64,000 bases of DNA from NCBI GenBank assembly GCA_963989385.1, contig OZ022508.1, positions 28,604,166 through 28,668,165 on the forward strand. The letters are read 5' to 3'. Made by a program: the position numbers and the translations under genes. The notes under the pieces are model-generated. The model ran no database searches, was not told where the DNA came from, and saw nothing but the letters and a program-made list of their open reading frames with translations. The first letter of the stretch is position 1, and each line of letters begins with the position of its first letter. The stretch comes from Ctena decussata. Lineage: Eukaryota > Mollusca > Bivalvia > Lucinida > Lucinidae. Positions 15,930 through 28,634 of the stretch are shown here, piece after piece.

Positions 15930-17591
15930 TAACTTAGTGGAGTTATCACAAAACTCATGAAAGTGGCCAAACCAATGTAGTTATCACAAAACTCATGAAA
16001 GTGGTTGATTTGATGCTTAACGTCCACGGTAAACAACTAAGGTCATGTCGGGACGGTCAGTTAACCTAACCACACTATTCCTGGGCAGGCTTAGACCTCC
16101 TAAGCGGTTAACCAGTACTAAGTGCACATACTTTCGCCAGTAACTGACAACTGCCCTTCTTGAATCAGCGGAAGGAGAAACGAAAGTATGTGGCCAGACC
16201 GGGATTCGAACCCAGGACCTCTGACTTACGAGTCAGGTGCCCTACCGATTGCGCTACCCGACCCGGCCTCATGAAAGTGGCCAAACCAATATAGTTATCA
16301 CAAAACTCATGAAAGTGGCAAAACCAATATAGTTATCACAAAACTCATGAAAGTGGCCAAACCAATATAGTTATCACAAAACTCATGAAAGTGGCCAAAC
16401 CAATATAGTTATCACAAAACTCATGAAAGTGGCCAAACCAAAATAGTTATCACAAAACTCATGAAAGTGGCCAAACCAAAATAGTTATCACAAAACTCAT
16501 GAAAGTGGCCAAACCAATATAGTTATCACAAAACTCATGAAAGTGGCCAAACCAAAATAGTTATCACAAAACTCATGAAAGTGGCCAAACCAAAATAGTT
16601 ATCACAAAACTCATGAAAGTGGCCAAACCAAAATAGTTATCACAAAACTCATGAAAATGGCCAAACCAAAATAGTTATCACAAAACTCATGAAAGTGGCC
16701 AAACCAATATAGTTATCACAAAACTCATGAAAGTGGCCAAACCAATATAGTTATCACAAAACTCATGAAAGTGGCCAAACCAAAATAGTTATCACAAAAC
16801 TCATGAAAGTGGCCAAACCAATATAGTTATCACAAAACTCATGAAAGTGGCCAAACCAAAATAGTTATCACAAAACTCATGAAAGTGGCCAAACCAAAAT
16901 AGTTATCACAAAACTCATGAAAGTGGCCAAACCAATATAGTTATCACAAAACTCATGAAAGTGGCCAAACCAAAATAGTTATCACAAAACTCATGAAAGT
17001 GGCCAAACCAAAATAGTTATCACAAAACTCATGAAAGTGGCCAAACCAAAATAGTTATCACAAAACTCATGAAAGTGGCCAATCCAAAATAGTTATCACA
17101 AAACTCATGAAAGTGGCCAAACCAATATAGTTATCACAAAACTCATGAAAGTAGCCAAACCAATATAGTTATCACAAAACTCATGAAAGTGGCCAAACCA
17201 AAATAGTTATCACAAAACTCATGAAAGTGGCCAAACCAAAATAGTTATCACAAAACTCATGAAAGTGGCCAAACCAATATAGTTATCACAAAACTCATGA
17301 AAGTGGCCAAACCAATATAGTTATCACAAAACTCATGAAAGTGGCCAAACCAATGTAGTTATCACAAAACTCATGAAAGTGGCAAAACCAATATAGTTAT
17401 CACAAAACTCATGAAAGTGGCCAAACCAATATAGTTATCACAAAACTCATGAAAGTGGCCAAACCAAAATAGTTATCACAAAACTCATGAAAGTGGCCAA
17501 ACCAAAATAGTTATCACAAAACTCATGAAAGTGGCCAAACCAATATTTTGGTTTGGCCACTTTCATGAGTTTTGTGATAGCTCCATAAGTT
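15930..17591. repeat. 38-bp minisatellite inside a foldback element
   Basis: About 35 head-to-tail copies of a 38-bp unit (AGTTATCACAAAACTCATGA then AAGTGGCCAAACCAATAT) fill 15941-17547, with few variants, mostly AAAT versus ATAT at the unit end. At 17548-17591 one unit is present in inverted orientation, followed by CTCCATAAGTT, the near-complement of the left flank AACTTAGTGGAG. The array is therefore bounded by inverted arms. A SINE at 16005-16268 splits the second unit. Confidence 0.9.
16005..16268 (-). mobile_element. tRNA-derived SINE with 12-bp target duplication
   Basis: TCATGAAAGTGG lies directly on both sides (15993-16004 and 16269-16280), a clean target duplication made from minisatellite sequence. 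On the minus strand the first 78 bases form a tRNA-like head with A-box-like TAGCGCAATCGG and a perfect B box GGTTCGAATCC; the anticodon region reads CTCGTAA (Thr-like CGT) but the arm gives an 8-base loop, so it is not a working tRNA. The remaining body of about 186 bases ends ATCAAATCAA. Confidence 0.85.
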
Positions 17592-19180: not shown

Positions 19181-19267
19181 GAAACGGCGCAATTCTCACG
19201 CAGATTCTGAATAAAAGAATTCTCGTGTTTTAAATGTGGGACCCTAATTTCTGGCCGGGCGATTTAG

Positions 19268-19516
19268 TGTAGTGACGCATCGTCTTGGCCCGATTCCCGG
19301 GTCCGGATGTAAGTACCGGGGATTAGTAGCACTAGAAGCAAATCAAGGGGCGATATTTATCTACTTCCGCCAGACATGCGCAGTTAGGTGAATTACAGCT
19401 GAGCGCTTTGCACGAATCCAGAGCGGTGACAGCCAGCGGTCTCAATTTCCATCCCTCTTGCCTTGCTTCTAATCTACAAGGGAATTGTATAGTTATAAAG
19501 GGGTAAAAACACAATA
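19268..19516 (+). repeat. 5' LTR
   Basis: Starts TGTAGTGACGCATCG and ends AAAAACACAATA. Nearly identical to the copy at 24154. Confidence 0.9.
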
Positions 19517-19517
19517 A

Positions 19518-19535
19518 TGGCGACGAGGTAAACTT
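19518..19535 (+). promoter_or_regulatory. Candidate primer-binding site
   Basis: TGGCGACGAGG follows the 5' LTR by one or two bases, as expected for tRNA-primed minus-strand synthesis. The matching tRNA is not identified. Confidence 0.5.
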
Positions 19536-19810
19536 GGCAGAAGCATTTGTATTTTGTTATTTTCGCCTTTTCCCCCATTGACATTCGTCCTGTGTTTTTT
19601 CGAACACTAACTTTGACAAAGGAGGGAATAGGTCGCCAGTTCTAGAATAACAAATTAACAACATTGCAAGCTTCTACGCTATACACACAGGGCCCTTGAA
19701 AGTCTCGACCTATAAATTCTAAATTTATCCAGTTTTGGTCGAAATTAGAAAGCAGGCGTAAGGTTAATAGAGGGTCAGTTATACAGGGAATAATATAGGG
19801 AATTTTACTT

Positions 19811-20028
19811 CTTGTGGAGTCTTGTAGACACACTAGATGGTGCAAATAAGATTTCTTATGAGGTCTTGTAGACACATGAGTAATTTATTTGTTATTCCCA
19901 AAGTCTCTTGTGGAGTCTTGTAGACACACAACATTATTCAAATAAGATTTCTTGTGGAGTCTTGTAGACACACAGGTGATTTATTTGATTAAAAGTTTAT
20001 TGCTTGTGGAGTCTTATAGACACACGTG
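19811..20028 (+). repeat. Five 26-nt triloop hairpins in the retrotransposon leader
   Basis: Hairpins at 19811-19836, 19855-19880, 19907-19932, 19951-19976 and 20003-20028. Each has a six-base outer stem (CUUGUG or CUUAUG on the left), an internal loop of two bases against one A, an inner GUCU/AGAC stem, and a UGU loop (UAU in the last). Start-to-start spacing alternates 44, 52, 44, 52. The outer stem keeps pairing where it changes: CUUGUG/CACAGG in the fourth becomes CUUAUG/CAUGAG in the second. Confidence 0.8.
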
Positions 20029-20112
20029 ATTGTTCAAATAAGACACATGGTCATTACCCCACCACAATTGTAATAGCAATAAAGTCAGTATTATCCCTGT
20101 ACGTCTGTCACC

Positions 20113-22656
20113 ATGCCAATAAACGTCAACACAGCGACTACAGAGGAACTGAAACAGATTCCAGGAGTTGGTGAAAAAGTTGCACAGCTCCTTATTCAGT
20201 TCAGAGATGTTTATGGAGTCATCAAGAGAGAGGCTCTGAATTTGGCTCTTCGGCGACACCTGTCAGATGAAGTCCTGGAGATGATAGACTTCTCAGTGCC
20301 AAAGCTAGATGATCCATTCGATATTGATCTAAGCTGTCTCCCATCAGTACCGAAGAATGATTCATGGGAACCCTTGGTGAGCTTTGCCCACCAGACAACA
20401 GCAAGAAGGTCAAGGTCACCACATGAACCAGAGTCAGAAGTTTGGCATCCACTGACGTTGCCATCAGCATTTGAGCCAAGAAAAGAGTCAATGTCACCAG
20501 TTCGAGAGAGTTTCTCCATGTTGGCATCAAAGTTGACAGATCAGGAAGCATCTGGTATGTTAGCAGCAGCTGCGAGTATCCATGAGCCAGAAGAATCACG
20601 TCCTTGTAGAACTGATTCCAGGTCAGTATCTCATGGTGAGAAAGAGGATAAGAAACCTGCTGAAAGGAAGACATCCACATCAAGAGGGTCAGGGGGAGGT
20701 ATTGGGTCTTGTAGATCCAGATCTCCTAGGGCACACAGATCTTCCTCAGGGTCAAGGTCACCGTCTAGTAAGAGACGTTCAAGAAAACACTCCCCTAAAC
20801 ATAAAAAGACGCATAGGCGTCACAGTAAAAGGTCAAGGTCACACTCTGGGTCACTGTCAGTGTCAAGGTCACACTCAGGGTCGGTGTCGAGGTTAAGGTC
20901 ACAGTCAAAACGGTCTGAGTCAAAGTCCAGAAGATCAAAGAAAAGACCATCAAGGTCAAGATCAAGGTCAGCTTCTGGATCACGATCCACTTCAAGGTCA
21001 AGGTCAAATCAGAGTCATTCTAAGGAATCAGATTCCAGTATTGTCAAGAAAAAGGATAAGAGCTCCTCAAAGAAAACAGACTCTGAAGTTATGAAGAAAA
21101 AGGACAGAAGTAGATCAAGGTCATCTTCAAGGTCAAAGTCAGTTGAGCGTCGTTCAAGAAATTCTGACAATAAAAATATGAAAAAGAAACACATTTCATC
21201 CAGGTCGACTTCAGGGTCAAGGTCAGTTGAACGCCACTCGAGAAAATCTGGCACAAAAGTTGTGAAGAAAAAGAAGCATGATTCTTCAAGGTCAACTTCA
21301 CGGTCAAGGTCAGTGAGACGTAATTCAAGTAAACATGACTCGAAGAAAAATAAGTCACAGAAAAAGATATACAAACACTCCAGATCAAGTTCGAGATCAA
21401 TTTCCAGATCATAGTCAAGGTCAGCCTCAAGGTCATCAAGTCCACATTTCAAATCTCATAAGAGAAGAATTAAATTAGAAACAAAGCATGACAGATCAAG
21501 GGTGGTGCACAAACATAAACGTCGATCGTCATCTAGTTCAAGGTCAACGTCAAGATCATCATCAAGGTCACATTCTAGATCTTCCCATAAAAGGAGAGTT
21601 CAGACAAGGCGTGCTAAATCAAAGATACATAAACATAAACGTCATACATCGTCTAGTTCAGAATCACAATCAAGATCTCCTTCACGGTCAAGGTCACGTA
21701 AATCAAAAGGAAGATCAAGGTCACAGAAAACAAAAAGATCAGGAAAACATCCTCACTCATAATATTCAGACTCAGACAGAGATTCTTCAGTGGACAGATA
21801 TTCTTCAAAGCATGGAGATCCCCGAAAACACCCTAAGGCTTTGCGTTTTGATGGGAAGTCAAACTGGCTATCCTTTAAAAAGAAGTTTGATAGCTACAGA
21901 AAAGTGATGAAATGGTCAGAGGCAGAAAGCAAAGATTATTTGATGTGGAGTCTGGAAGGAAAATCCCTAGATTTTTTCACCATAACAACATCTGATAAGG
22001 AAAAATACTCTTTTCGAAAAATAATGAAGAAATTAGACGCTAGGTTTGGTGTAAAGGAGTTGACAGAAACCTCGAAGGCAAGATTTCGTCAAGCTTTTCA
22101 GAAGCAGGATGAATCATTGGAAGATTGGGCGGACCGTGTAATGACTCTTGCTACTCCAGCATTCGTAGATTTACCAGAAAAGCATCTGAAACAAGAAGCC
22201 ATTGCTAGATTTTGCCAGGGTTGTATTGACAGGGATGCAGCTAAACACGCTTGTTTTGAACATCCTAAAACCATGGAAGAGGCATTAAATTTGGTAAAAC
22301 ACCATCAATATATTTCTCAAGCCGTTGATGGAAAGAAGGCGAAGAAAGAAAATGAAGCTTCAGTCAATGCTGTGCAGTCCCCATCAGAAGCTAGGATTGA
22401 ACAACTTATTGCATCAGCAATAAAAGACTTCGCAGTAAAACTACAGACAAGCTCTCAATCCAGTTATCAATCTTCTTCAGACACAGAACGGAATTCAGAC
22501 AGTAAGAAGAAAAGTTCCATTCAGTGTTTCTTCTGTAAGAAATTTGGACATATGAAGAAAGATTGCAGAGTCTATCAAGCATGGCTTAGTAAAAAGCAAG
22601 GGAGCAAGTCAGAAGATTCGGAGGACCAAGGTCGGGATAGGAATCCCACACAGTAG
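20113..22656 (+). pseudogene. Gag polyprotein: HhH motif, RS-rich domain, capsid, CCHC knuckle (two in-frame stops)
   Basis: One frame of 848 codons runs from the ATG at 20113 to TAG at 22654-22656, interrupted by TAG at 21412-21414 and TAA at 21760-21762. Residues about 2-35 are a ComEA-type helix-hairpin-helix motif (NVNTATTEELKQIPGVGEKV). Roughly 95-185 is a low-complexity linker. About 190-565 is a long RS/SR-rich, lysine-rich domain like those of splicing factors. From about 575 a retrotransposon capsid begins (LRFDGKSNWLSFKKKFDSY), and residues 805-818 form a zinc knuckle (C805, C808, H813, C818). The capsid and knuckle are the normal particle-forming and RNA-binding parts; an HhH plus RS extension is unusual. 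The two stops may be decay in this copy or recoded. Because the stops fall in or just after the RS region, the first open part alone would make HhH-RS without capsid. Confidence 0.8.
20702..20720 (+). repeat. Triloop hairpin inside gag
   Basis: UUGGGUCU / UGU / AGAUCCAG: an eight-pair stem with two G.U-type pairs and the same CU-UGU-AG apex as the non-coding hairpins, here within coding sequence for the RS domain. Confidence 0.55.
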
Positions 22657-24153
22657 AGGGAAGGCCTTTAAAGTAAACAGGGGAGGAAGGAGTACAGGTA
22701 CATCAGGTGAAAACTGTTAGGTTGAATCTTCACAGTCCAGTCAGATCACTCACGTTTAAATGAGTTGTTGAAGTACAGGAAACAGGAAAGGTTACCGGTG
22801 TCAGGAAATACCTTCAGTGGCTACCGGTGTTAGGCATTACCTTTGGAACCTGTCCAAGAATCGTCCAATGACTTCAACCAGGGTGATAAGACTGTGATGT
22901 CAGATATACAGGAAAGAAGGTTACCGGTGTCAGGAAATACCTTAAAGGTTACCGGTGTCAGGAAATACTTTCAGAGGTCACCAGTGTCAGGAATCACCTG
23001 TGGAACCTGTGCAGGATGCTACATCCAGATTTCAAGACTACTCTGCCATGATGGATGGACAGATGGATGCTTGCTCCCAGACTTGTAGTCAGGGAAAGAG
23101 ATCCCCAAGAAAACAACTTCAAAAGTCAAGACAGCTGGATGCTCGCTCCCGGACTTGTAGTCAGGGAAAGAGATCCCCACAGAGAGAGGTTACTCTGCTA
23201 TCCACCAGATCTGTCTGAGCCGAGACTTGTAGTCAGGCGAGGAAGATTTAAAAGAAAGCTTCGTGGACGGCAGTAATCCATTCCAGTTGAGTTGGGCTTG
23301 TAGCTCGCTCAAGAGAGTAGTCATGTCAACATCCAGGTGAGCTGGGGGTGTAGCTCGCTCATGTCAAGTTCCAGTTGAGGTGGGCTTGTAGCTCGCTCAT
23401 GTCAAATTCCAGTTGAGTTGGGCTTGTAGCTCACTCATGTCAAGATCCAGTCGAGTGGGGCTTGTAGCTCTAAGCTCACTCATGCGTTTCATGTGGCGGT
23501 TATGTCACCATCCAGTCAACAAAGCAATCCGGATGTCAACAGTTTGAGCGGACATGTTGTCTGCTCAGAAGTCAGTGACAGACTTGTAGTTTGTCATTTG
23601 GCCAGTTTCAGCAGAGAATCCAGATGGCATGTCTTGTAGTCGGTCATCTGTCAGCTTCAACAGAGAATCCAGATGATATGTCTTGTAGTCTGTCATCTGT
23701 CAGTTTCAACAGAGAATCCAGATGATATGTCTTGTAGTCTGTCATCTGTCAGCTTCAACAGAGAATCCAGATGATATGTCTTGTAGTCTGTCATCTGTCA
23801 GCTTCAACCCAGAATCCAGATGATATGTCTTGTAGTCTGTCATCTTCAACAGATATCCAGAATTCCAGATGATATGTCTTGTAGTCTGTCATCTGTCCAG
23901 TATAAACAGATATCCAGTGACAGACTTGTAGTTTGTCAACAGAAGTCAACGACAGACTTGTAGTTTGTCAAAAGAAGTCATCGACGAGCCTATGGTTTGT
24001 CAAGAAGATTCCTGTGGACTTGTAGTTCACAACAGTCCTGGTTGATGTAAGCTACACCAAAGAGGTAAGGTATTGTGTGTGGACCTATGGCTAGCACATC
24101 TCTTTTCGGCTTCCCAGCCTGGGTGGAACCTTTCATCATAAAGTTGGGAGGAG
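22657..24153 (+). repeat. Hairpin-array region in place of pol
   Basis: Successive families of short repeated units, each able to fold around a UGU (or UAU) triloop. (a) 22788-22814, 22917-22943 and 22945-22971, with ACCGG/UGU/CAGGA apex. (b) 23075-23095, 23147-23167 and 23219-23238, GACU/UGU/AGUC. (c) 23289-23310, 23377-23398, 23415-23436 and 23453-23481, GGGCU/UGU/AGCUC. (d) 23543-23569, a 12-pair stem. (e) 23574-23598, 23918-23938, 23951-23969 and 23983-24001. (f) 23621-23650, 23670-23699, 23719-23748, 23768-23797, 23818-23845 and 23866-23895, with a 48-50 bp period. (g) 24013-24031 and 24078-24098. No long open frame; the small frames at 22843-23276 follow the repeats. Confidence 0.8.
24141..24153 (+). 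promoter_or_regulatory. Candidate polypurine tract
   Basis: AAGTTGGGAGGAG directly precedes the 3' LTR, the expected site for plus-strand priming. Confidence 0.55.
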
Positions 24154-24403
24154 TGTAGTGACGCATCGTCTTGGCCCGATTCCCGGGTCCGGATGTAAGC
24201 ACCGGGGATTAGTAGCACTAGAAGCAAATCAAGGGGCGATATTTATCTACTTCCGCCAGACATGCGCAGTTAGGTGAATTACAGCTGAGCGCTTTGCACG
24301 AATCCAGAGCGGTGACAGCCAGCGGTCTCAATTTCCATCCCTCTTGCCTTGCTTCTAAGCTACAAGGGAATTGTATAGTTTATAAAGGGGTAAAAACACA
24401 ATA
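24154..24403 (+). repeat. 3' LTR
   Basis: Copy of the 5' LTR with a T/C and a T/G substitution and one extra T near its end. Confidence 0.9.
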
Positions 24404-25086: not shown

Positions 25087-25131
25087 GTACTTTTAACATT
25101 GACAATTTTGGAATATTTAGGATACACAGAT

Positions 25132-25617
25132 ATGGACTCCAAGGCACAGAGAAAGTTTTTATTAGATAATGCTAGGTTTATTGTAAGAAAGACTAGTGAG
25201 AGATTTCAGCGAGTAATAATAAGTAAGGACTTAACAGCTGAACAACGTAAGGAACGCAGAGAGAGAGTCCAACGCGGTCAACGCCCAAGAGATACTCATA
25301 GGCGTATGGAAACAAACTCAGAGTCAGACGGTGAAAACGAAGTAGGGACTTCTAACAGAGAGGGGCAGAACGTTGTGTCGATGGTGATCGAAGGAACACA
25401 ACCTAGTCCGATTATGGGGGAGCGAGTATTGCCCCATTTAAATATTGAATCAAACTTGGAGAGTAATGAGTCATCGTTTAGTGCATATAATGATACGACT
25501 CTTGTCGGTGACGCTACGGTGGTAGGAGGTATCTATACTGGAGAGGGGCACTCCAACTTTGATTCTGAAGGAGGGCGTCTGAGATGGCCGCCTCCGGCAC
25601 CACCAAATCTTGCATAG
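25132..25617 (+). CDS. LINE ORF1 C-terminal fragment
   Basis: The frame is open from 25087; the first ATG is at 25132 and the stop is TAG at 25615. It holds NARFIVRKTSERFQRVIISK followed by DLTAEQRKERRERVQRGQR, resembling the end of the RNA-binding ORF1 proteins of LINEs (a phrase like DLTPEQR is common there), then an acidic, Ser-rich tail. N-terminal part missing. ORF2 follows in the same frame, separated only by the TAG. Confidence 0.5.
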   Translation: MDSKAQRKFLLDNARFIVRKTSERFQRVIISKDLTAEQRKERRERVQRGQRPRDTHRRMETNSESDGENEVGTSNREGQNVVSMVIEGTQPSPIMGERVLPHLNIESNLESNESSFSAYNDTTLVGDATVVGGIYTGEGHSNFDSEGGRLRWPPPAPPNLA

Positions 25618-28600
25618 GACAATTGTTTTACCAATGTAAATAGTGAAACCCCAAACATTAGTCAGATAACTGGGGAGTCTTTTAATGATAATAGTACGTT
25701 TGTTTTAAATGCAGGAAATACCAGCCACTTAAAAGTGTTTTATTCAAATGTTGATTGTTTTACTATAGAAAAGAAACTTGAGCTGGAGACCCTTTTAATG
25801 AATAAGGGAATTGATATTATTGGTCTGACAGAAATATTGCCAAAGCATTCGGCATTTGAAAATCATGAAATTTACTACAAGCTTAACAATTATAATATTT
25901 TTACCAGTAATCTGAATGAGGGTCGAGGGACTGCAATTTATGTGCATGAAGGACTTTGTGCTGAACAGATTGATATAGAAAGTGACTTCAAAGAAGCAGT
26001 TTGGTGCAAAATTAAATTGAGGCATAATGATACACTCCTGGTTGGCTGTTTGTACAGGAGTCCAAACAGCAACGATCAAAATTCTCTTGAATTGTTAAAC
26101 CTATTTAAAAAAGTAAAAGATACTAGAGACTCTCATAAATTAATTATGGGGGAGATTTCAATTTAAGGGAAGTAAACTGGGAAACTATGACAACATCAGT
26201 TGGCGAGAACAATATTGCTAGTTTGTTTGTGGAATGTGTGCGTGACTCATATTTTACTCAACATGTGACTCAGCCAACCAGGGTGCGTTCCGGAAATGAA
26301 CCTTCTGTGCTTGACCTGATTTTTACGAATGAAGAGGATATGATGTCAGACATGAGATATTTATCAAGCTTAGGCAAAAGTGATCATCTTTTAATTTCAT
26401 TTAGTTTCAACTGTTATACAACTTCAGAGTTTGAGGGTGGTAATCAAGTGAAATATAATTTCCATAAAGGTAACTATCAAACAGTAAAAGCTGACTTGTC
26501 AACGATTGATTGGGATGAGGAACTGCGAGGGCTAGACCTGTCGCGGTCTTGGTCGAGACTCACTGAAATTTATATCAAATTAATTGAGGAACACATACCA
26601 GAGAGTGGGTCAAGGCGGAATCGCGAGGGGTATATTCCTTATCTAACCCAGTCATGCTTTGATGCTATAAGAACCAAACACCAAAAATGGTTGAAATTTA
26701 AGTACTGCAAAACAATAGAAAATTTTAATAGATACAAAGTCGCAAGAAACCTTGTAACAGCCGAAATGCGAAAGGCCAAATATAATTATGAGAAAGATCT
26801 ATCCGCTAAAATCAAAACAGACAATAAAATCTTCTGGAGCTATGTGAGAAAACAGTCAAAAACAAAATCCGTGGTGTCTAAGTTACAAATGTCAAATGGA
26901 GAAGTTTCATCAAACTACCAAGAGACAGCCAATACTCTAAATGATTATTTTGCAAGCGTTTTCAAAGTTGAAAATACTGACGATATTCCTGTCTTTGAAG
27001 AAAGAGGATTTACTCAAGTTGTGGAGACTGTCACTATCTCTGAAGAACTGGTCGCAAAAGCCATAGAAAGACTGAACCCTACCAAGTCCCAAGGGCCGGA
27101 CAATATCCATCCTCGTTTTTTACAGCAGACGAAAGATTTGATCAAAATACCTTTAGCAAAAATTTTCCAAAAATCATTAGATGAAAGTAAAATCCCTGAA
27201 ATATGGAAATGTGCCAACGTAACGGCTATTTTCAAAAAAGGTGAAAGAAAAGACCCAGCCAATTATAGACCAATCAGTTTAACTTCTGTACCGGGAAAAC
27301 TGATGGAAAGACTCATTCGAAATGCATTGGTCGAGCACTTGACAAGCAACAATTTGTTTGCCACAGAACAGCATGGATTTATTACCGGTAAATCATGTAT
27401 TACACAACTATTGGAATATATGGAAGACATAACTCAAGCTATCGATAACGGTGACGACGTTGATGTAATATATTTAGATTTTCGAAAGGCTTTTGACCGT
27501 GTACCACACACTCGTTTACTGCATAAACTACATAGATACGGAGTCAGGGGCAGTCTTTACAACTGGATTAAGGAGTTCCTTAATAAAAGAGTGCAGAGGG
27601 TTGTTGTCAGCGGAGTGGAATCTGGGTGGCAAAAAGTTACTAGCGGAATACCCCAAGGAAGTGTTTTGGGGCCGGTGTTATTCTTAATATTCATTAACGA
27701 CCTGCCTGATGTTCTGAAGGTTTGTGTTAAGCTGTTTGCAGACGACACAAAACTATATAAACAGATAACCTGCCAACAAGATATCCAACAAGTACAGCAT
27801 AGTGTAACATCAGCAGTGACATGGGCTAAAGATTGGGATATGGAATTTAACAATGCTAAGTGTCATCACCTACATATCGGGAAACATGAATTTGGACATA
27901 GATATACTATTGAAACCCCAGAAGGAGAATGTGAAATTACAAAAGTAGACAGTGAAAAAGATTTAGGTGTCACTATAGATAAAAATCTGACATTTAGAGA
28001 GCACATCTCAATTAAAATAAATACTGCTAATAGAAACCTTGGGATTATATTTAGAACCTTTACCTATTTGGACCCTGATATGTTTTTGAATCTGTATAAA
28101 AGCTTAGTAAGGCCACACCTGGAATATGCATCTGTAATTTGGTCACCCCTGTACAAAAAGGACAGAATTATTATAGAAAATGTTCAACGAAGGGCAACTA
28201 AACTTGTTAGATCCTGTAAAAACCTGTCGTACCCTGAAAGATTAAAGAAACTTGGTTTACCATCTTTGGAATATAGAAGGGAAAGATCAGATTTGATACA
28301 AGTCTACAAGATTCTGCGTGGAATAGATAAAGTAGAACAGGACAAACTATTCACAATGGCAACATATACTATGACTAGAGGACATTCACAGAAATTATAC
28401 AAAGAAAGACCTCGTTTAAATATACGGGCAAATAGCTTTACTAACAGAGTTGTAAATGCATGGAACCAACTTCCTGAACAAGTAGTAACGGCACCCTCCC
28501 TGAACGCTTTTAAGAGTCGGTTGAATTCTCACTGGAAGGGACACCCACGGAAATTCTACCCAGCATGTTACGAGACTGGTGCAACTACCGGACTGAGAAA

Positions 28601-28634
28601 TACCAATTCAAATGCGTCTATACAAGTCAGATGA
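25618..28634 (+). pseudogene. LINE ORF2: AP-type endonuclease and reverse transcriptase, one frameshift
   Basis: The first part (to the stop at 26164-26166) is an exonuclease/endonuclease/phosphatase fold domain (DIIGLTE, YRSPNS). The frame breaks in a run of five G at 26148-26152: one more G would restore the catalytic GDFN-type motif and the frame that continues to 28634. The second part has the reverse transcriptase: YLDFRKAFDRVPH (about 27470-27505), GIPQGSVLGP (27644-27673) and the catalytic FADD (about 27735-27746), then thumb and C-terminal regions (NIRANSFTNRVVNAWNQLP). Length is near normal for ORF2. The single lesion means this copy is recent. Confidence 0.85.

Follow-up and report, generated by a model that had tools for sequence, protein, structure and literature searches.

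What reads an RNA that displays the same three-base loop dozens of times on different stems? The question is raised by a long terminal repeat (LTR) retrotransposon of the lucinid clam Ctena decussata. The element lies on the plus strand at 19266-24403 of the window, which is the whole analysed stretch of 64,000 nucleotides (nt) from contig OZ022508.1 (assembly GCA_963989385.1, positions 28,604,166 to 28,668,165). It is about 5.1 kb long including gag and has no pol. Its sense RNA contains 27 triloop hairpins, with five in the leader, two in gag, and 20 in the 3′ region (Table 1). The loop is UGU in 24 hairpins and UAU in three. These hairpins probably form a multivalent recognition array of the sense RNA, and the protein that reads it for packaging would most likely be the lineage's own Gag.

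The hairpins have a common cap as well as a common loop. Twenty-four are closed as CU-loop-AG, two as CC-UAU-GG, and one as CA-UGU-UG. All 23 CTTGTAG sites on the plus strand of the window are inside the element, and the minus strand of the whole window has five. The initial annotation reported about 29 hairpins, one of them in gag; the array is real, but the count becomes 27 plus one decayed member at 23349, and gag contains two. The stems quoted there are present, with eight base pairs (bp) each at 23951, 23983, and 24013, and 12 bp with loop UGU at 23543-23569. Over 28 hairpin rows, including the decayed one, 46 of 325 stem pairs are G.U, and many stems have bulges and mismatches. Folded alone in the window copy, 20590-20624 (z 0.04), 24066-24105 (z −0.34), and 23205-23245 (z −0.96) are weak. 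Five repeats of 27-28 nt at 22788-23000 were not confirmed as hairpins (fold z −0.27 to 0.73); this repeat occurs in other copies of the element too, without a stable fold.

Shuffled sequence of equal dinucleotide content, which had been proposed as a check, fails to reproduce the hairpins. The noncoding parts contain eight UGU or UAU loops on at least seven perfect pairs, against a mean of 0.17 and a maximum of two in 300 shuffles. With at least ten pairs and up to two defects, 19 are observed against a mean of 0.60 and a maximum of three in 60 shuffles. The antisense strand has none under either definition, in line with the earlier claim for the sense strand. The fold of 23500-24151 has a z of −4.99 in sense and −0.83 in antisense (20 shuffles each), the leader (19800-20112) has a z of −3.14, and 22657-23550 is less marked at −1.59. 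A count of 359 core sites (130 distinct, 115 under the random 5% energy) includes CCTGTGG chance sites and is not relied on for that reason. Genome-wide, CTTGTAG triplets number 414 + 671, and those of the reversed motif, used as a control, 139 + 355. The motif by itself lacks specificity, because many of the places listed, all of them on contigs C1 and C2, belong to satellites of unrelated sequence that have CTTGTAG in their units, as at G000:C1:23665834-23667774. Among known RNA families, none except one tRNA reaches gathering level in the window, and 19500-24400 has only two sub-threshold snoRNA matches, on the minus strand. Kissing-loop dimerisation was rejected on inspection, since UGU is not self-complementary.

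The loop is carried by unrelated stems. The 23 CTTGTAG sites, picked regardless of their stems, fall into eight clusters of unrelated arms, where at least seven groups had been claimed. When the 3′ arms are re-assigned between the eight clusters, 3 of 100,000 draws pair as well as the true order. This is about the chance of drawing the true order itself, because 8! gives 40,320 arrangements and about 2.5 hits are expected. At 13 of the 23 sites, none of the 23 arms pairs better than the site's own 3′ arm, and the sense hairpins are stronger than their antisense counterparts in seven of the eight clusters. The 32-nt array and its continuation comprise three distinct hairpin sequences; all 24 pair cells remain paired although five pairs are altered on both sides (reached by 4 of 500 shuffles). 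An alignment of 28 hairpins that includes the decayed member has 19 distinct rows and 21 double-change cells, against 7.7 such cells in shuffles (0 of 500). Tandem duplication alone is insufficient, as the initial annotation held, because eight unrelated arm groups match their own arms and double changes keep the pairing. Many stem-loops with a short shared loop motif on different stems are also one hallmark of dispersed capsid-protein packaging signals; the other is a cognate shell protein that binds the motif and assembles on the RNA, for which the element offers a correlation of loop class with Gag lineage.

Other close copies in the same 1.66-Gb genome have the same array. All of the 14 further 3′ regions and 13 further leaders that were compared have it in sense, with 10-17 CTTGTAG per 3′ region and 3-6 CTTGTAG or CTTATAG per leader. 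The four UGU/UAU cores are absent in antisense from all 14 + 13. The number of units in the tandem arrays differs between copies. For 25 hairpins (the gag and decayed ones left out), 345 loops are possible and 274 passed the alignment filter, with UGU in 227 and UAU in 47. Bases 1 and 3 are altered in 0 of 274 each, and the middle base in 20, always between G and A. The 71 loops filtered out comprise 57 in gaps and 14 with letters, ten of which are UGU or UAU. Spacers change at 4.7% and stems at 3.3%. Of 57 distinct single changes in stems, 34 leave the bases paired, where the spacer spectrum predicts 31% (p = 1e-5). The loop and upper stem are held strictly, and the outer pairs loosely. In 11 of 13 other copies, the upper stem of the gag hairpin at 20605 is formed by the five pairs of GUUCU/AGAAC; L036, which is like the window, and L039, which has AGGAC, are the exceptions. 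Loop UGU and the core of the second gag hairpin (20710) are preserved in all 13.

The loop class is specific to the lineage and common to its gag-only and pol-bearing members. It is U-purine-U (U-R-U) here and mostly U-pyrimidine-U (U-Y-U) in a sister lineage. When the genome was searched with the capsid piece of Gag, 150 of 1012 candidates were scored and 151 matches with identities of 32-100% were obtained; the 2.7 kb downstream of that piece were read in 20 diverged relatives. Loci L072, L074, L075, and L076, with Gag at 74-81%, have 3, 4, 10, and 7 CTTGTAG, respectively, and lead into long open frames (664 codons in L074). Pfam protease and reverse transcriptase (RT) were found in L072, L075, and L076, the three of this group that were scanned. 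In L075 and L076 the hairpins lie within the open frame as repeats of 57 nt, a length divisible by three. Locus L073 has two CTTGTAG and no frame beyond 257 codons. In the group with Gag at 58-63%, nine loci without a frame beyond 179 codons have 9-14 CTTCTAG and 2-4 CTTTTAG each. In the same sister lineage, L082 (protease, RT, and RNase H) has six CTTCTAG and L080 (protease found) has five, and neither has CTTGTAG. Loci L088-L091, with Gag at 32-44%, show no array over the stretch read, with no more than one CT-UNU-AG site; protease and RT were found in L088 and L090, the two scanned. RT was thus found in six relatives only (L072, L075, L076, L082, L088, and L090) and not in the window element.

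The U-Y-U lineage has the same CU-NNN-AG caps with UCU or UUU loops on nine stem clusters, two of them weak. In arm re-assignment its true arms are matched by 2 of 50,000 draws. Aligned loops number 134 of 144 possible; bases 1 and 3 are altered in 0 of 134 and the middle base in three, all within the class. The UAU at 2553 of L072 and the UUU at 2562 of L082 are at an equivalent position in the aligned pol sequence, and L083 has UUU at two similar places. The gag tree separates the six U-R-U rows as one group (99/100) from the U-Y-U rows, whose own branching order is not firm; support is weak for 11 of the 18 inner branches. All six U-R-U rows, among them the window and one close copy, have the zinc knuckle CFFC[KH][KR]FGH. 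In the U-Y-U rows it is CFFCKQQGH in all seven whose piece extends that far, and the piece of the other four does not. This difference is a possible determinant of the loop class.

Deletion may link the two kinds of element in the sister lineage. Over the 2.7 kb compared, the gag-only L083 matches the pol-bearing L082 at about 4-586, 1183-1359, and 2499-2700, without the rest. The pieces kept by L083 make up 36% of the stretch and contain eight of the eight CT-UNU-AG sites of L082, and the hairpin-bearing pieces are repeated. L083 and L078 therefore look like deletion derivatives that retained and multiplied hairpin-bearing pieces of pol. L078 has the pattern of L083, which suggests a single deletion history. 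In the 3′ region of the window element, no pol-deletion remnants were found beyond matches of 41-59 bases.

The proposed mechanism begins with one three-base loop displayed on interchangeable stems, which would be read by a protein with many copies per particle. A loop-reading protein is suggested because a fixed loop on exchangeable stems is how such a protein would be recruited, and a shell protein because dozens of sites per RNA would suit it. The likeliest candidate for this protein is the Gag that the element itself encodes, which would bind through its CCHC nucleocapsid. Gag would form the shell, and the gag-only RNA would be selected into particles by showing dozens of Gag sites. A related pol-bearing partner would supply RT in those particles. 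In a broader form, which has about an even chance of being correct, two sister lineages in one genome would use orthogonal codes, U-R-U and U-Y-U, each read by the knuckles of its own Gag. Gag-only elements would show the loop dozens of times for packaging, and their pol-bearing partners would share the code, partly inside coding sequence. The ways in which retroelement Gag proteins recognise the RNA of their own element, and in which non-autonomous elements exploit autonomous ones, are poorly defined. Such recognition can be tested directly here with short hairpins and natural nucleocapsid domains, because two diverged Gag lineages come with two loop alphabets, each RNA has many sites, and deletion derivatives occur naturally.

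Several points weigh against Gag as the reader or against strict selection on the hairpins. The match between loop class and Gag divergence is only a correlation, because the switch is shared by descent and is possibly one event, and RT divergence could go with the loop class too. Retroviral zinc knuckles usually prefer guanine, and the UAU loops have none. The diverged relatives are covered only over the 2.7 kb downstream of the capsid piece. Each of the nine gag-only U-Y-U elements retains 1-2 CTTGTAG, and a single CTTATAG is present in L082 and in L084. Four of the 14 lettered loops outside the alignment filter are neither UGU nor UAU, and the gag hairpin of L033, one of the 11 with GUUCU/AGAAC, has the loop GGU. 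The leader hairpins alone are too uniform to decide (98 of 500 shuffles reach the observed value), and pairs with a double change, a weak measure, number five against 3.6 (57 of 500 shuffles). The compensation that the initial annotation predicted is only partly borne out. Comparison of hairpin families shows it clearly and comparison of recent copies only modestly, because the 34 of 57 changes that keep pairing contrast with a count within hairpin clusters of recent copies in which 52 stem states are broken and 33 kept. Changes from Watson-Crick (WC) pairs to G.U and to A.C stand at 16:9 (p = 0.23; 20:10 in another count), which is no significant excess.

The loops might instead bind another factor encoded by the element or its partner, such as RT or Gag-Pol, or a host export or localisation protein, with a role in replication, export, or translation. 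This is rather unlikely, even though pol-bearing members of both lineages have the hairpins, some within the pol frame, and the leader, coding, and 3′ positions are compatible with many roles. A UGU loop also caps the epsilon element of hepatitis B virus (HBV) (PMC7699622), and epsilon is bound by the viral polymerase. Dozens of sites per RNA fit an enzyme, of which few copies are needed, less well than a multivalent shell protein. The array is kept in gag-only elements, whose sole product is Gag, and the loop class tracks the Gag lineage, with the reservation on RT divergence made above. Tandem duplication and template switching by RT could also have spread the hairpins as a by-product of replication, without selection on the RNA. 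Most hairpins are in tandem arrays of 32, 38, 49, 72, and 48/96 nt, the unit number varies between copies, and tandem CTTGTAG is found in unrelated satellites of the genome. A by-product is very hard to reconcile with 8 + 9 clusters of unrelated stems that have one cap each and matching arms, with loop bases 1 and 3 fixed in 274 + 134 aligned loops where spacers change by about 5%, and with double changes that preserve pairs. Template-switch repair would also be expected to erase the G.U pairs and bulges that persist.

The initial annotation offered Roquin-like sites beside Gag binding; of the two, Gag binding for packaging stands as one option, and the Roquin-like sites are not supported. Host readers of the Roquin or Regnase-1 kind, which bind pyrimidine-purine-pyrimidine (Y-R-Y) triloops, could use the hairpins as decay sites, for self-limitation, or as a decoy array. 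Y-R-Y triloops mark the constitutive decay elements (CDEs) of Roquin (PMC6294493, PMC5603727), and Regnase-1/MCPIP1 is reported to prefer UGU and UAU loops (PMC7699622). The loops of the window element agree with this, whereas the sister lineage, in the same genome and with the same cap, has UCU and UUU and mostly lacks Y-R-Y. MCPIP1 is reported to favour UAU and UGU over UCU (PMC7699622). The CDE stems are described as 6-8 bp without G.U, and G.U wobbles are reported to lower their activity (PMC6294493); here G.U pairs are frequent at the proportion given above, and bulges and mismatches are common. Decay sites would also be a cost to a mobile element. A host decay role is therefore improbable, if less so than a by-product of replication.

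Packaging by Gag would have parallels in viruses. The RNA of satellite tobacco necrosis virus encodes only the coat protein and has about 30 stem-loops with one loop motif, AXXA (PMC3593212), and its dispersed packaging signals are the nearest working analogue. MS2 and the HBV core are further cases, and the HBV core sites have RGAG loops (PMC7612645). Like the satellite virus, the element has many stem-loops with one short loop motif in an RNA that codes only for a shell protein. It differs in being an LTR retrotransposon with a triloop, in having two sister lineages in one genome that differ in the middle base, in sharing its code with pol-bearing relatives, and in that Gag binding is here a prediction. 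Among mobile elements, TR-GAGs are gag-only non-autonomous LTR retrotransposons. The element resembles them in having LTRs, a primer binding site (PBS), a polypurine tract (PPT), and a gag frame without pol. The TR-GAG reports found are on plants, mostly crops and Arabidopsis, and their accessible parts mention no array; the present element is molluscan, with a hairpin array and a PNMA-like Gag that has a helix-hairpin-helix and an RS-rich N-terminus. No retroelement with such an array turned up in the open-licence literature searched.

Bivalve TRIM elements are also non-autonomous LTR elements, and an inverted-repeat hairpin is mentioned for the internal domain (PMC6934838). Unlike TRIMs, which are below 1 kb, the element codes for gag and has 27 hairpins in its 5.1 kb. 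The hairpins resemble the CDEs of Roquin and the stem-loops of Regnase-1 in the Y-R-Y triloop, UGU or UAU, and differ from them in having a U-Y-U sister lineage, many G.U pairs and bulges, leader and coding positions, and dozens of sites per RNA. PNMA2 and Arc are single domesticated genes. The capsid piece matches PNMA2 by profile (8rb3, 4.9e-06) and weakly by fold (E 4.7e-03, probability 1.00, model mean pLDDT 69), whereas the element is mobile and multicopy and has LTRs.

Two stops interrupt the gag frame of the window copy. Intact copies do exist, since the frame over gag is open for about 860-920 codons in many other copies of this genome. The C-terminal piece matches PF14893 (9.1e-09, above cut-off), and zf-CCHC is found at 4.9e-04 with 20.5 bits, just under the cut-off of 20.8. 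Gag has 115 protein relatives, the named ones being from Dreissena, Nucella, or bins of Candidatus Thiodiazotropha, which are symbionts of lucinid clams; this points to a molluscan and probably bivalve host. The helix-hairpin-helix is at the N-terminus (20113-20230), and PF12836 is present in 64 of the 69 relatives listed. In the relative P0018, the frame continues past the zinc knuckle, after about residue 250, into short tandem amino-acid repeats that recall the in-frame hairpin repeats of L075 and L076. Dozens of the genomic gag matches at about 38-42% share one TGA and one TAG inside otherwise long frames, which may be either a conserved feature of the family or the mark of a common dead ancestor. 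The conserved Cys codons of the gag hairpins encode Cys in most rows of database proteins, but the redundancy-weighted values of 57% and 31% against a regional mean of 51% are not counted as support.

The element shares with Ty3/gypsy-like elements a near-identical LTR pair, a PBS and a PPT beside the LTRs, and a gag with capsid and zinc knuckle, and differs from them in having no pol. The LTRs differ by two substitutions and one indel in the alignment, so the insertion is young. The PBS is presumably the complement of the 3′ end of tRNA-Ser(GCU). The element was correctly described as pol-less, and the longest open stretch in 22657-24151 is 90 codons. A target-site duplication was not found; the only 4-mer in both flanks is ATTT, with its 3′ copy off the aligned LTR end. 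No relatives of the element were found in viral-contig and genome-contig collections. In the copy L008, at about 1757 to 2441, the PBS after the LTR is extended by further tRNA-like sequence; behind it come gag fragments, one of them inverted, and a second 3′ region. This looks like an aberrant product of reverse transcription, and L010 has a similar tRNA-like extension past its LTR.

Table 1. Coordinates of the element's features in the window
Feature	Position	Strand	Details
5′ LTR	19266-19516	+	TG start at 19268; aligned with 24152-24403
PBS TGGCGACGAGG	19518-19528	+	follows the 5′ LTR; sequence inspection
Leader hairpin 1	19806-19842	+	UGU at 19823
Leader hairpin 2	19850-19885	+	UGU at 19867; A-U pair in place of the G-C of the other four leader copies
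Leader hairpin 3	19908-19931	+	UGU
Leader hairpin 4	19946-19981	+	UGU
Leader hairpin 5	19999-20030	+	UAU
gag N-terminal piece	20113-21414	+	helix-hairpin-helix motif, then RS-rich stretch; in-frame TAG at 21412; PF12836 3.1e-08
gag-internal hairpin	20593-20618	+	UGU at 20605; weak in window copy
gag-internal hairpin	20694-20727	+	UGU at 20710
gag C-terminal piece	21907-22656	+	PNMA-like capsid and one CCHC knuckle; ends with TAG at 22654; upstream in-frame TAA at 21760
27-28-nt repeat, five copies	22788-23000	+	no stable triloop hairpin
Hairpin, 72-nt family	23070-23100	+	UGU at 23084
Hairpin, 72-nt family	23142-23172	+	UGU at 23156
Hairpin, 72-nt family	23214-23243	+	UGU at 23228
Hairpin, 38-nt family	23284-23315	+	UGU at 23299
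Decayed member, 38-nt family (at 23349)	23336-23359	+	GG for CU, no triloop
Hairpin, 38-nt family	23375-23405	+	UGU at 23387; 8 perfect pairs possible, but computed fold differs from triloop
Hairpin, 38-nt family	23414-23437	+	UGU at 23425
Hairpin, 38-nt family	23449-23480	+	UGU at 23463
12-bp hairpin	23543-23569	+	UGU; A-U closing pair
Hairpin	23571-23602	+	UGU at 23585
Six hairpins, 49-nt array	23621-23895	+	UGU at 23635, 23684, 23733, 23782, 23831, 23880
Hairpin, 32-nt array	23913-23943	+	UGU at 23927
Hairpin, 32-nt array	23951-23969	+	UGU at 23959; 8 bp
Hairpin, 32-nt array	23983-24001	+	UAU at 23991; five stem bases differ from 23951, 8/8 pairs kept
Hairpin	24013-24031	+	UGU at 24021; 8 bp; 30 nt past the previous one; four consecutive pairs altered on both sides
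Hairpin	24075-24099	+	UAU at 24086; C-G closing pair
Polypurine-rich tract AAAGTTGGGAGGAG	24140-24153	+	adjoins 3′ LTR; sequence inspection
3′ LTR	24152-24403	+	TG start at 24154

Two other features of the window are near the element. Just downstream, 25087-28634 contains frames of 176, 182, and 831 codons with a weak endonuclease/exonuclease match, and is perhaps a non-LTR retrotransposon. A tRNA-like gene is present on the minus strand at 16191-16263, with 41.3 bits in Rfam and an odd anticodon in ARAGORN.

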